DNA from: Pyrenula massariospora
Taxonomy: Eukaryota > Ascomycota > Eurotiomycetes > Pyrenulales > Pyrenulaceae
NCBI GenBank assembly: GCA_021030905.1
Contig: JAGFMI010000005.1
Span: forward strand, 1,302,001-1,366,000
Direction of reading: 5' to 3'
Length of the DNA: 64,000 nt
Position numbers and translations under genes: made by a program
Part shown: piece after piece, positions 50,390 to 56,691 of the stretch
Position numbering within the stretch: the stretch's first letter is position 1
How the letters are laid out: each line of letters begins with the position of its first letter
Notes under the pieces: generated by a model
What the model was told of the DNA's origin: nothing
Database searches by the model: none
The model's input: the letters and a program-made list of their open reading frames with translations, nothing else

Positions 50390-52180
50390 TCAAGAATTTT
50401 TCATGACTTCTTGTGCCTCGAGGAGCTGAAGATAAACACCTGAATTAATGATTAGATATTAGAGAGATCGATATAGATAAGACAATGTACCTGCAGCATT
50501 CCACCGGGCATCGATTGTAAGAAAGGTCTCTTTTAGCTTTTTCACAACCTCAGATGAGTCGGACTTGTCTCCACCACAGCGCATGTGGACCCCACAAATA
50601 TGGTATGCGAAGAAGAGACACCATGGTGACATATCCTCAGGATTACGACCAAGGAAGCATCGTAGGTCAACTAGGTTTGTATTGATCTTCTCGGTGATTC
50701 GTTGGACGACAACTCTTGCGCGTTGAGAACGGTCTGTGTCAACTATGTTTACACCATCAGAGTGAAGCCAGGGCGTGTACAGAGCAACGAGAGCGCTATA
50801 ATCACGGAGTTAGGAAGAATTGAGAACGGATTATAGCACGTACCTGTAAACAAAAATAATCTGATCATTGTCTGATGAGTCCACATTCCGCGAAGCGGCA
50901 ACCATCGAGTGAAGTGTTCGATCTAATTGTATCCAGACGTCGTCGTGAATCGCCGTATCACTAGAGACCAGACGTAAAACTTGACCCAGCAGTCTCGCGG
51001 CTTGACACAGCAAGGCAAATTTACTCATGTGTGCAGTCATCGGAGAAGACAGTGTAAAGGAATCATCTGATCTCACAATCTAAGGTAATCATAAGCCCAC
51101 AGAAAAACGATAAGATTGTTACGACGTACGCCCTGGTCCCATGCTGCGTCGTCTGCTGGTAAAAGATCATCTAATCCAGGATCTGCTGTTGCAAAGGGTC
51201 TCCCAGGGCAGCCGATACTCACGAAACTATGCTGACCATCAACATTCTTTAAAGGTAGTAGCTAGACTAGCATGTCCACGGTATAAAGGGTGGGGACGAA
51301 CCGGTCTAAAATTACAATCGCCCACCAGACTCTCCTTCTCTCCTCAACCTCAACCAAAGTCAGGACCCTTTTTGATTTTGACGTTCTACTGACATTAATG
51401 CCAAGAGCGTGCGCATAGCGAGCACATGCACCAATTGACAAGAAGGCTGCAGGGTATATAGCATGACCAAGTTCGTAAAGAGCCAAGAGCACCCCGGCTT
51501 GCAAAACTGCAATAGAAAAGATACTAGAGCCTTCAACCTCTAGGTTGAAGTGCTTCGCAGCGTGGTACAGAGGGGTCCGGGGATTCCGCGAACCTGTTGG
51601 GGGTAACGTTGTTATAAGTTTGAGAGAAAGAAGTAGAAGGGCAACGTCTGGTCGAGATTGGAATGATGGCCGAAGGTAAAATTCATAGAATCGTTTTTTA
51701 GAGACAAAAGGCATCCACAAGTGTATGTGTTCGAAAAATTTGGATGCGGTGAGGCGAATCTCATCCATGTCCCCAAGCATACGCAGAATGTGTGCTGGAG
51801 CGGGAGAAGGCGCCGGAGAGATTTCAACCTGGCCATGTTTTAAGATGCCCGGATCTAAGAATAAGATGGTAGGAAAGTCAATGGGTTGAGAATTCGCTCG
51901 ATCATCGTCGACGGAGAAATCATGCCACAATTGGTCGGATGCAGATACAGAATTGCGCTTTTGCTCTGGCTTCACGTATTCGCATGTCAAGTTTCTCCTA
52001 TTCCCATCGTGGTGAGTCGAGCTACGGTGGGCCTGTAAATCATTACCCAATAGTGCCGACTTACTTAGAGCACGACAAACACCTGGGAAGGGCCTTGTTG
52101 CATTTCCTCTTCCGTGTCTTACATGAAGTGCACACTTGCTCCGCCTGATGGGGACCACTTCCACTACTGGAGGTTTGCAT
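50390..52180 (-). CDS. Zn2Cys6 fungal-type transcription factor
   Basis: Six exons on the minus strand (52180..52065, 51997..51302, 51226..51130, 51079..50844, 50795..50491, 50439..50390) give 499 residues. The zinc cluster is complete and spans intron 1: C-x2-C-x6-C-x6-C-x2-C-x6-C, from VCTSCKTRKRKC through CLSCSKRNLTCEY, starting near residue 13. A middle-homology region follows (PFVSKKRFYEFYLRP; CARYAHALGIN; EERRRVWWAIVILDRF), then GCPGRPFATADPGLDDLLPA and a helical C-terminus. Intron 2 uses a GTTCGT donor, which restores DRFVSIGCPGRP. These regulators bind CGG triplets in the nucleus. It is transcribed away from the dehydrogenase at 52556, from a shared promoter with a strong CGG/CCG palindrome, so the dehydrogenase is its likeliest target and autoregulation is likely. 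The last exon is only 50 nt. Confidence 0.85.
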
Positions 52181-52555
52181 GATGTGGAAGGATGGAGTGT
52201 TACCACCTTCTGGCTTTATTTTCCAGGGCGTGATAGGTACATGGAGTGGCAAAGTTGATGTTTGGCTGCAGGAGGTGGTAAAATGAAGAGTAGTGAGTGC
52301 GCTGCTGCAGTGAGCGCAGTATAAGGATTTTTGCGGCTGATCCTGCGGCCGGCTGGCGGCCGCCGACCGGCCGCCATTTTTTATATAAATGGCACTACCT
52401 GCTTTGGAGTGCAGCAATTATTTACTAGGTAGCCATGATCACATACATTTACTGCTCTCGATTAAGCTATTTATCGCGACATAGCTGTGGAAATAGTGCT
52501 CCTTCTTCCCTCACCCACGCACTCTGATACTACTCGTATTTGGACTGCTTGTCAC
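52181..52555. promoter_or_regulatory. Shared divergent promoter of the Zn2Cys6 regulator and dehydrogenase
   Basis: 375 bp between the two start codons. It carries the palindrome at 52345-52374 and, 7 bp further, a TATA-like ATATAAAT within 52382-52390. The TATA lies about 165-175 bp before the dehydrogenase ATG and just beside the palindrome. Confidence 0.6.
52345..52374. promoter_or_regulatory. Near-perfect 30 bp palindrome with three CGGCCG cores (candidate operator)
   Basis: The layout is GCGGCCGG (52345-52352), CTG, GCGGCCGC (52356-52363), CGA, CCGGCCGC (52367-52374). It is symmetric about 52359/52360 except for the 3-base spacers. The hexamer CGGCCG recurs at 52346, 52357 and 52368, exactly 11 bp apart, about one helical turn. 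Each core is itself an inverted CGG/CCG pair, the triplet bound by Zn2Cys6 proteins. Assignment to the adjacent regulator is inference. Confidence 0.7.
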
Positions 52556-53566
52556 ATGGGTCCATATACTACGGCTCATGCCAATCCTCAAGGCGTTGGG
52601 GACGCCAGACCAACCGCCCTCCAAATCATTCGAGATGAGTGCCTCGAGGGTCAACTCGTCGGCAAAGTGATGGTAGTCACCGGCGCAACTTCGGGGATAG
52701 GTGTTGAGACTGCACGAGCATTGTCTGCTACGGGTGCTACTTTGTTCTTAACTGCCCGCGACATCAAGAAGGCCGAGACCGCTCTCGTTGAGATTCTGGA
52801 ACCACCTCGTGTTTCGCTGGTAGAGATGGATAACGCTTCCTTCACTAGTATTCGAATAGCAGCAGCAACGATTCGCAAGAACTCGAACCATCAAGTCAAT
52901 ATACTCGTCAGCAACGCTGGCATTATGGGAATTGAGAACGTCAAGCTCACCGAAGATGGCCACGAGATGCACTTCGCTATAAATCACCTCGGTCATTTCC
53001 TCCTATTCCAACTTCTCAAGCCTGCCTTGCTTGCCAGCTCGACTCCCGATTTTCGATCTAGAGTCGTCGTTGTCGCTTCGTCAGCCCATCGCACCTGCAG
53101 CCTTAACGAAAGTGACAATTATAATTTCCAAAAGGGAGGGTATCATTATGGGCTGGCATATGCAAATTCTAAGCTTGCAAATATCTACATGGCTAACGAA
53201 TTGGATCGTCGCTACGGCCACAAAGGGCTCCATGCGACCAGTCTCCACCCAGGGGGAATCAATACAAACATATCCAGACACCTGGGCAACGAGTTCGTGG
53301 AGCAGATTATGAGCAACGAGAATATTGTCAAAATCTTGAAAAGTGCCGAGCAGGGAGCTGCTACGACTGTTCTTGCTGCAGTCGGAAAAGAATGGGAGGG
53401 TAAGGGGGGAAAGTATCTGGAGGATTGTGAAGAAGCAAAACGTGGTATAGATGACGACGAAGTCTTCGGGGTTGGATACGTTCGCCAGACTTACGACCAA
53501 GAGAGCGAAGAACGCCTGTGGAAAGACTCACTGAAGATTGTTGGGCTGAATGACGACATGTCATAG
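52556..53566 (+). CDS. Short-chain dehydrogenase/reductase (retinol dehydrogenase-like)
   Basis: A single-exon gene of 336 residues. The ATG at 52556 is the first in frame; an upstream GTG extension is ignored. It has the Rossmann cofactor loop TGATSGIG (42-49), the NAG motif in LVSNAGIMG, and catalytic Y202-x3-K206 in LAYANSKLAN, with a preceding Ser in VVVASSAHR. LFLTARDIKKAE after strand 2 suggests NADP(H) preference through Arg/Lys. The best family match is the fungal retinol dehydrogenase 12-like group (WWOX/RDH type), which reduces aldehydes and ketones; the substrate is unknown. It is divergent from the Zn2Cys6 regulator and likely under its control. There is no signal peptide or membrane segment. 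Confidence 0.9.
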   Translation: MGPYTTAHANPQGVGDARPTALQIIRDECLEGQLVGKVMVVTGATSGIGVETARALSATGATLFLTARDIKKAETALVEILEPPRVSLVEMDNASFTSIRIAAATIRKNSNHQVNILVSNAGIMGIENVKLTEDGHEMHFAINHLGHFLLFQLLKPALLASSTPDFRSRVVVVASSAHRTCSLNESDNYNFQKGGYHYGLAYANSKLANIYMANELDRRYGHKGLHATSLHPGGINTNISRHLGNEFVEQIMSNENIVKILKSAEQGAATTVLAAVGKEWEGKGGKYLEDCEEAKRGIDDDEVFGVGYVRQTYDQESEERLWKDSLKIVGLNDDMS

Positions 53567-54286
53567 TGTCGGTCGAAGTGGGATCTGGCCAATAGTCATA
53601 TGTTGGGATTGAACACGACTGACGCATAATTATCAAGCTATAAAATTAGAACGTCAAGATAAGTTGATAGTCCTAGGCATGAGGAGAGGACTGCGTTTAA
53701 AACCGCGAGACAATTATGACTGAGTGACGGCGTCGATCTCTCGCAGAACTTTCTGAACGGAGTGCATATGCTGATTGTCAGCCACAATAAAAGCTCGAAG
53801 CAATGAGATGATGATAATAGCTAGAGACTATGATAAAAATTAGAGATATAGGTAAATATATTGAACGAGATAGGTCACCGGGGGTAGGTAGGTGGATAGA
53901 CAGAAAGGCGTGGCTCATGTGTGGCATGTTTAGGAAGACCGGATTTTGGCCGCGGCGACCAATCGAGGCTTGGCAGCAGAAATCGTCGCTGACTGGATCA
54001 GTAAGCCACGATTTCTGCCACCAAGCTGCCAATGAAATCTGGCACTCTCTTTTCCTATTAAGATCTTAGAGCCCCTTGCGGCTCTAGGCGCTGGCTAAGA
54101 CCCTATCGAATTGAAATAGAGATCTGGTTTAGGCTAGAGTAAAATGGAAATCGTGGTCGGTGTTAGTCATTTTGCATCATGACAAAACCCTATATATATG
54201 GTCTTCTGCACGTTTCGTAACTCGTTCAGTACTGAGCATTCTCTGTTGGAGAACGACCTGCTAGCAAAGAGTCCCGTCCACCTCTA
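53567..54286. other. Intergenic spacer with fold-back elements and TATA box
   Basis: This is the 3' flank of the dehydrogenase and the promoter of the arginase-fold gene. It contains the hairpin at 53970-54032, a second small stem (TAGAGCC at 54067-54073 with GGCTCTA at 54080-54086) and a TATATATAT box at 54191-54199, about 95 bp before the ATG. No gene seen. Confidence 0.5.
53970..54032. repeat. 63 bp inverted-repeat hairpin
   Basis: Arms TTGGCAG (53970-53976) and CAGAAATCGT (53977-53986) pair with ACGATTTCTG (54008-54017) and CTGCCAA (54026-54032). The right arm carries an 8-base bulge, and inner 3-bp pairs GCT/AGC and ACT/AGT close a small loop. The total is about 23 pairs. It could be a MITE remnant, a 3' processing structure or a binding site; no target-site duplication was identified. 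Confidence 0.55.
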
Positions 54287-55243
54287 ATGGCAGCGACCAA
54301 TCATCAAATCTCGGTGATCTATGTCGCTTCGGACGTCGGCTCGATCTACGCAGGGAAATCTCGAGCACCTGATGCCATCAAGAGCGTCGGCCTCGTCGAT
54401 AAGCTGAAGAAAGCCTCGTACAACGTTTCAGAATATGCAGCCTTACCGCAGCCTATCATATGGAGCTCCGCTGAGATTGGACCTAATGGAGCACGTAATG
54501 AAGATCTCGTCGTCGAAGTCTGCCATCGTGTCAAAAACAGCGTCGCCGACGTCCTCTCTTCTTCTCCCTCTCGATCCCCATTCACCTTCGTCGTGGGCGG
54601 CGAGTGTGTCATGACGCCCGCCATCATGTCAGCCTTTGCAAATCACTACGGGCCCTCCAAACGGGTTGGGCTCCTGTACGTCGACGCGGACTGCGACATG
54701 TATGTACCCGGCGAGGCGGGGAACGTGGCGGGGATGGCGGGCACGCACCTAACGCTAAGGTCTGGAGCGCTTGAGAGCATGAAGCCATTTTCTCGACCAG
54801 ACGGGTCGGGCGTCGTGGACAGCGAGAGCATGGTGTTCTTCGGGTTGAATTACGACTCTCCGGCCAACAAGCCGCACCATGTGGGTTATTTACTGGATGA
54901 ACATTTCCGCGTCTTTACGAAAAAGGCTGTTGCGACTAATGCGAAAGGGGCTGCTGAGGCGGCGCTGAAGTGGCTCGAAGGGAGAGTGGACTATATCCAC
55001 GTCCATCTGGATGTGGATGCGATCGACCCGGGCAAATTTCCTTTGTGCAACCTTCCGAGTTTCACCGGCGTCGGTTTTGAGGAGATCATGTCGGCAATGA
55101 AGATTTTTCTCGGGAGTCAGAAGGCCGTAGGACTGAGCGTGGCGGAAGTGAATCCTGATCATGATCCTGGCCTCAAGATGACTACGATGTTGGTAGACGA
55201 GCTCGTGGCAAGTCTTGAAGATAGGATCACATCAGAGCGATGA
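54287..55243 (+). CDS. Arginase/ureohydrolase-fold protein with altered metal site
   Basis: A single-exon gene of 318 residues; ATG 54287 lies after a TATA box. The order of ureohydrolase motifs is kept, but two ligands differ. Motif 1, normally GGDH, is GGEC at 104-107. Motif 2, normally DAHAD, is DADCD at 133-137. Motif 3, LDVDAIDP at 241-248, is canonical, as is the late EVNPDHDP segment. Thus both histidine ligands of the dimanganese centre are replaced by Cys and Asp while the four Asp ligands remain. The flanking GLLYVDADCDMYVPGE text reads as a coherent subfamily rather than random decay. It may hydrolyse a guanidino/amidino compound with a different metal, or be non-catalytic. It lies between the dehydrogenase and the aldo/keto reductase. 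Confidence 0.82.
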   Translation: MAATNHQISVIYVASDVGSIYAGKSRAPDAIKSVGLVDKLKKASYNVSEYAALPQPIIWSSAEIGPNGARNEDLVVEVCHRVKNSVADVLSSSPSRSPFTFVVGGECVMTPAIMSAFANHYGPSKRVGLLYVDADCDMYVPGEAGNVAGMAGTHLTLRSGALESMKPFSRPDGSGVVDSESMVFFGLNYDSPANKPHHVGYLLDEHFRVFTKKAVATNAKGAAEAALKWLEGRVDYIHVHLDVDAIDPGKFPLCNLPSFTGVGFEEIMSAMKIFLGSQKAVGLSVAEVNPDHDPGLKMTTMLVDELVASLEDRITSER

Positions 55244-55403: not shown

Positions 55404-56691
55404 CTACCCATTTAGCATCGCCTCATGCTGGCCACCATAGCGCTCCCCAGAAATAGGTAGCGTGTCGAGGATTTTCTGAATCTCAACCAAGTCTTCGTCG
55501 GTCAGCGACGCAGGCTTGCAGTTCTCGATGATGCGTGCCTCCTTGGTGGAGCCAGGGATAGGGATTGCGCCCTGGCGACACACCCAGCCGATGGCCACCT
55601 GCGCCGTGGTCACGCCCTTGCGCTTGGCAATCTGTCCCACCGCCTCGACGAGCTTCAAGTTCTGGTCGAAATTCTCGGGCTTGAAGCGCGGCAGCATGCG
55701 CCGGAAGTCATTCTCCGCCAGGTCGTCGAGCTTGCGTATTTCGCCCGTCAGCCAGCCGCGGCCGATGGGGCTGTATGCCGCGACGGGGATGCTAACTATT
55801 CCATGGGTCAAAGTGTCAGTAGATTGATATTTTGGCGCTTCCGCTTCCTTTTCGAGGAAACAACATACGCTCATGACATGTGTCCGCAATCCCGTTGTGA
55901 AGAGGATCAGGCGTGAATAAGCTCAGCTCGATCTCGACGACTGATATGGGATGTACGGCATGGGCTTTGCGGATCGTGTTCGTGCTGGCTTCGCTCAGCC
56001 CGGCGCCACGGATCTTGCCCTCCTTGACTAGTTCGGCAAGTGCCTTGATTGAAGTTTCAATGGGGACCTTGGGATCAACTCGTGCACACTCAAAGATGTC
56101 GATTGGCTTGATGCTAGGTGGCAACACCTTGACGGCCTCCTCGACAGAAGCGCGAATACCCTCCGCGCTGCCGGTGGGGCCCTCTTTCGGATGAAATGCG
56201 CCTTTGATACTGAGCACGACTTTGCTGGCGTCCTCGGGATACTGTTCGAAGTAGTGCCTGATCAGATGTAGCGAATTTGCCTGGGGCGTGCCATAATGTA
56301 GGCCCTGCATCCAAGTTAGCTTAGATGTCCTATACAGCCTCTGCTTAATGAATCCGTAAGCTGATTAGGAGTCAAGCGAAGATGCTATTCTTCCACTTAG
56401 AAGGCCGCCTTACACCGTTCCAGAAGTTGGCACCCTGCTCGAGCGCCGTCTTCATTGCCTTTACCGCGACTGGGTATTCGACGAGAGCCCACGGGATCGT
56501 CAAACCTGGAGCACGCAGCGTCAACTAGACATTCCCACGTGTTGGCTAAGGTGCTTGTCTTTGGCCTCTGCACCCTGAAACGAAGAAAGAAAGCATGATA
56601 CAACCGGTCGCTCACCTAACATGCCGTACCCAACGGAACCAACGGGCTTGCCGGCAACGGTGATGAGCTTTGCTTTGTCCATGTTTGCCAT
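55404..56691 (-). CDS. Aldo/keto reductase, pyridoxal reductase-like (AKR8 type)
   Basis: Four exons on the minus strand (56691..56616, 56505..56414, 56304..55869, 55795..55404) give 331 residues, the family length. ATG 56691 (MANMDK) precedes the first strand LITVAGKPVGSVGYG. Junctions rebuild GMLGLTIPWALVEY, NFWNGGLHYGTPQANS and CHELSIPVAAYSPIGRG. The last two are diagnostic: WNGG.xYGTP carries the catalytic Tyr of AKR8 enzymes such as yeast/fission-yeast Plr1. VVLSIKG supplies the Lys and DIFECARVDP replaces the usual His segment. The C-terminal NADPH site is IPIPGSTKEARIIENCKP. The enzyme probably reduces pyridoxal or another aldehyde with NADPH. It converges with the arginase-fold gene (160 bp between stops). 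A CGGCCG lies at 56806-56811, about 115 bp upstream of the start. Confidence 0.88.

Follow-up and report, generated by a model that had tools for sequence, protein, structure and literature searches.

Zn2Cys6 domains read CGG triplets, and a coiled-coil dimerisation element after the zinc cluster is usual in regulators of this family, though not universal. Described systems that come close to the locus analysed here, a promoter in which three CGGCCG hexamers are merged into one palindrome, each share part of its layout. One study gives CGGCCG as the target of Rds1, a Zn2Cys6 protein of Saccharomyces cerevisiae (PMC4872168), while a passage naming Rds1 among yeast factors in another does not give its motif (PMC3566590), and the CGGCCG in excerpts of two further papers is primer sequence (PMC3205040, PMC12486835). 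The Rds1 site thus named has the same six-base core as the array and is read by a Zn2Cys6 protein (PMC4872168), but it is a single CGGCCG, whereas the array has three, helically phased within one 30-bp dyad, and the likeness is one of the site alone.

The spacing of the array has its counterpart in AmyR, which in the relevant study is said to bind single CGG weakly and for which the promoters of most differentially expressed genes are said to hold ">1" CGGN8CGG motif (PMC4943734). This spacing is identical to the 11-bp pitch of the array, but the array has three units and is palindromic, and the likeness is one of spacing; the T that AmyR is described there as preferring at position 5 of the N8 is found in one of the four N8 spacers of the array (PMC4943734), and the flanking enzyme here is a short-chain dehydrogenase/reductase (SDR) as against the amylolytic genes of AmyR. 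The promoter type is matched by the bidirectional terA/terB promoter, which has three sites for TerR, a Zn2Cys6 protein in which an N-terminal coiled coil was undetected and which binds as monomers on CGG half-sites, one or two per site (PMC4360782). What the two loci have in common is a divergent promoter with three sites; TerR, however, binds direct repeats of CGG separated by 5 bases and is stated, as data not shown, not to recognise inverted CGG half-sites, whereas the cores of the array are all inverted and the three are merged (PMC4360782). The PglR motif of Fusarium, CGGN3CCG, likewise pairs inverted CGG triplets across a short spacer and is reported as overrepresented in the promoters of a Zn2Cys6-regulated cluster (PMC4872168), but its spacer is three bases against none in the array, and it is spread over a gene cluster where the array is packed into one site. 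A merged, phased triple was not found in literature searches on CGGCCG with zinc-cluster factors, on Pdr1, or on cooperative Gal4 at GAL1-GAL10. Since a Zn2Cys6 protein, yeast Rds1, is cited as targeting CGGCCG, the kind of site is known and its arrangement unusual: the Zn2Cys6 promoter site, the CGGCCG core and the multi-site divergent promoter are all familiar, and it is their combination in a merged phased triple that is not.

The array and its flanking genes

The window, the whole stretch of DNA that was analysed, is 64 kb long (C29:1302001-1366000) and comes from a 37.8-Mb genome in 33 contigs, which its introns and the Fungal_trans regulator mark as fungal. The features in and around the divergent promoter are listed in Table 1.

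Table 1. Positions in the window of the array, the adjoining promoter element and the two flanking genes
Feature	Position	Strand	Remarks
Zn2Cys6 regulator, exon 1	start codon 52180, exon to 52065	-	intron 52064-51998 (67 bases) splits the cluster
Zn2Cys6 regulator, second exon, Fungal_trans domain	51302-51997	-	PF04082, E 8.8e-12 on 51262-52215
Imperfect 30-bp dyad, GCGGCCGGCTGGCGGCCGCCGACCGGCCGC	52345-52374	.	holds the three CGGCCG cores
CGGCCG cores	52346-52351, 52357-52362, 52368-52373		pitch exactly 11 bp
Third core with flanks (13-mer), CGACCGGCCGCCA	52364-52376	+	also present upstream of the closest SDR paralog, C12:14581-14593
TATA-like element, TTTATATAAA, palindromic	52380-52389	.	5 bp from the array
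SDR gene, divergent	52556-53566	+	PF00106, E 2.4e-24; best PDB match 3rd5, E 1.5e-29

The sequence-only reading had described three CGGCCG cores exactly one helical turn apart, a 30-bp dyad with outer arms, an adjoining TATA-like element, and a position between a Zn2Cys6 gene and an enzyme gene, and all four descriptions hold. Of the 30 positions of the dyad, 26 are symmetric; the symmetry fades toward the margins of the array, with 28 of 40 over a 40-bp span. The window holds no other equally spaced triple of a palindromic hexamer, pitches of 6-40 bp considered. CGG triplets stand in a defined promoter arrangement, as expected of a Zn2Cys6 operator, and both the Rds1-type core, in three exact copies, and the AmyR-type direct repeat of CGG 11 bp apart are found; through the 11-bp pitch, CGG-N8-CGG-N8-CGG can be read on both strands. 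The array lies 164 bp from the ATG of the regulator and 181 bp from that of the SDR gene. The minus-strand frame that runs across the array has no stop between 52417 and 52061; since the regulator start is the first methionine in it, this frame does not make the array coding sequence. Nor is the array mobile or repeated DNA, as the 375-bp intergenic region matches only itself genome-wide (E 0.001) in a search that ignores simple repeats and very common words.

On the regulator side, the spliced translation has a complete six-cysteine cluster, C-X2-C-X6-C-X6-C-X2-C-X6-C, near the N terminus, while PF00172 on the unspliced, intron-cut fragment reaches 19.8 bits against a curated cut-off of 21; PF04082 scores 45.1 bits against a cut-off of 23. 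Matches to PDB entries are weak (LAC9, E 0.15; GAL4, E 0.19). In the closest paralog of the regulator (C30; L037 5120-6052) the zinc cluster is followed by a coiled-coil-like stretch, LRNKVQDLEQRL, which the regulator in the window apparently does not have. The next intron is probably 51301-51227, the exon that follows is in frame, and the gene, which runs on leftward, is intact as far as it was read, into this third exon. On the other side, the SDR gene is the probable target of the array, and TATATAAA on the plus strand begins 174 bp upstream of its ATG; a TATA-like stretch is present in the closest SDR paralog too, where it begins 165 bp before the ATG. Beside the SDR gene lie genes for an arginase-family protein (54236-55243, plus strand) and an aldo/keto reductase (55404-56364, minus strand).

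Candidate modes of binding

The array probably offers a zinc-cluster regulator an unusually dense landing site. The specific reading preferred here, to which we give an even chance, is that the dyad forms a compact array of operators in the promoter shared by the two divergent genes and that a Zn2Cys6 regulator binds it, most likely the one that the neighbouring gene encodes. Both strands of every CGGCCG carry a CGG half-site, a pitch of 11 bp brings all half-sites to one face of the helix, and the layout could serve either as three abutting CGG-N0-CCG sites or as CGG-N8-CGG-N8-CGG along one strand.

By a crude, home-made and uncalibrated heptad score the stretch after the cluster reaches 2.8, against 5.9 for the linker of the C30 paralog, and on this measure the regulator appears to be without an obvious coiled coil. 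The sequence-only reading had proposed cooperative binding of several dimers, as opposed to the single CGG pair that it took to be ordinary for Zn2Cys6 operators. The latter statement is too strong in view of the three TerR sites (PMC4360782) and the ">1" AmyR motif (PMC4943734) given in the passages cited above, and the several dimers are doubtful, both from the crude heptad score and from the packing of three CGG-N0-CCG sites into 28 bp, which may not all fill. Monomers on CGG-N8-CGG-N8-CGG, on either strand, would fit the array at least as well, and the lack of an obvious coiled coil by the crude score, together with the TerR precedent, favours phased monomers over three stacked dimers. The earlier interpretation as a whole is supported in part, plausible but unproven.

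On the preferred reading, a regulator with no obvious coiled coil would bind as monomers, with neighbours stabilising one another. The array ends 5 bp before the TATA-like element, so bound protein would sit directly upstream of the TATA serving the SDR gene, from where it could activate that gene; if a leftward transcript used the same TATA, the protein would lie at the initiation region and would be expected to damp the regulator's own gene. A bolder version, which we consider quite doubtful, is that phasing in the DNA replaces dimerisation in a regulator without a coiled coil and that the cooperative monomers make up a two-way switch around one palindromic TATA, in which the array would activate the SDR gene and block the start site of the regulator gene.

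Occurrence in the genome and rival explanations

The exact CGGCCG triple occurs once in the 37.8-Mb genome (no occurrence of the control), and CGGCCG pairs with N5 spacing are found at two places, both inside the array (one for the reversed-pattern control). CGGCCG has a density of about 315 per Mb, from 72 sites in a 229-kb background set that included the 13-mer-bearing loci L036, L047 and L048. At a pitch of 11 bp about 0.001 triples would be expected per genome, and at any equal pitch of 6-36 bp about 0.03, the latter being equivalent to about 5e-5 in 64 kb when CGGCCG alone is considered. Phasing and dyad are beyond chance. There is no general clustering of CGGCCG in the genome, as the 107 pairs observed at N0-30 are close to the roughly 116 expected if sites were independent (reversed control, 150), and a genome-wide class of phased CGGCCG arrays was rejected, since near-triples with at most two mismatches number two, the array included, against three for the control.

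The third core and its flanks, CGACCGGCCGCCA, link the array to another locus. This 13-mer was spotted by eye before any testing, and 29 paralog loci were surveyed, 19 from the 48 further SDR matches and the full set of 10 further regulator matches. The 13-mer lies 282 bp upstream of the ATG of the closest SDR paralog (C12, 50% identity), oriented as it is in the window, and is without a match at 28 of the 29 loci, being found at one of 19 SDR loci and at none of the 10 regulator loci, which rules out the regulator paralogs surveyed as carriers of the array. Genome-wide it has four copies (none for the reversed control; about 1-3 expected from Markov models). The third copy, C31:119858-119870, is 216 bp upstream of a putative ORF in the same orientation, an ORF that starts MADPFSLVASSFAVVG (stop-to-stop, introns ignored), and the fourth, at C7:379928, is antisense in a stretch that is coding-like by eye. 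The C31 copy has one further base in common with the array in the window.

An exact 13-base match to the array region was seen in none of 550 other 350-bp windows, one of which has a match of 12 bases; these were drawn from 27 loci and from the window minus 52301-52420, excluding the 13-mer carriers L036, L047 and L048, the loci L006-L008 and L026-L029 that are covered by longer stretches, and L010. A Markov simulation, trained on a set that included L047 and L048, which were fetched for the motif, gave 0.0015 such matches per 350 bp. Homology of the two SDR promoters as a whole is not significant, the alignment being reached by 63 of 1000 shuffles and by 49 of 648 real slices. CGGCCG itself lies within 1.5 kb upstream of the match at 10 of the 29 loci (six of 19 SDR, four of 10 regulator), about what is expected by chance at 315 per Mb. 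A large regulon of the flanked core is not supported, as the 11-mer GACCGGCCGCC has 22 sites against 28 for the reversed control, and 13 of the 18 sites beyond the four 13-mer places fall in a reading frame that stays open over 200 or more of the 333 codons in view, which suggests that these 13 are coding sequence. The shared 13-mer supports a real element to a moderate degree; should there be such an element, its regulon would be small or local.

An unlikely but serious alternative to an operator is that the array is an accident of sequence, a short GC-rich inverted duplication without bound protein whose CGG content merely resembles that of Zn2Cys6 sites. One arm and the centre of the dyad partly entail the third core, so the chance figures overstate the surprise if an inverted duplication took place, and palindromic growth would yield the third core and the phasing together. 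Consistent with such an origin, pairs, near-triples and the 11-mer are not enriched genome-wide, and the triple, unique in the genome, is absent with its spacing from the paralog promoters examined, that of the C12 paralog having one core. An accident would, however, have to account for an arrangement expected about 0.001 times per genome, for its place beside a TATA-like element and between a CGG-reading regulator and an enzyme gene, and for the recurrence of the 13-mer in the promoter of the closest SDR paralog.

Rather less probable, in our judgement, is a real operator with a different Zn2Cys6 binder, either one of Rds1-like specificity or a Ume6-like repressor acting at the middle core on GCCGCCGA (52359-52366), a sequence that we take to resemble the yeast URS1 core. 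A binder encoded elsewhere would suit the SDR paralog on C12, which has the flanked core and beside which no Zn2Cys6 gene was seen (open frames of at least 110 codons in a 10-kb stretch, inspected by eye), and the naming of CGGCCG as the Rds1 site in the passage quoted above (PMC4872168) points the same way; against this, the arrangement of the genes makes the adjacent regulator the simplest candidate. That the dyad folds into an RNA hairpin within a 5' leader, such as that of a regulator transcript starting upstream of the array, and so limits translation, is very improbable: the minus strand does fold well (-26.7 kcal/mol over 44 nt, equalled by two of 200 shuffles), but such folding is common to any GC-rich palindrome, the array is upstream of the SDR TATA and, at 6-35 bp from the TATA on the regulator side, would be transcribed only if initiation were very close or further right, and the paralog promoter that shares the flanked core has one core there.

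Implications and a further Zn2Cys6 promoter

Should the array prove to be an operator for a zinc-cluster regulator, a likely regulator-target pair would have been named for a fungal SDR that is as yet uncharacterised. Three bases make too short a target alone, and for this reason the locus, if real, would provide a natural test case for the specificity of zinc-cluster proteins without a coiled coil, in which phased half-sites could give the cooperativity that dimerisation gives elsewhere. On a conservative view it would be another Zn2Cys6 promoter site, one whose layout is unusually dense.

A loosely similar pattern, noticed post hoc and offered as a lead only, occurs at C11:2669911-2669949 (L042 4911 and 4944), where two CGGCCG are 33 bp apart, or three times 11. 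They begin 114 and 81 bp before what seems to be the ATG of a second Zn2Cys6 gene, a paralog 33% identical to the regulator, and a third CGGCCG is located within the first codons of that gene. About 1 kb past it, on the same strand, is a frame that by eye is SDR-like (L042 7860-8618).
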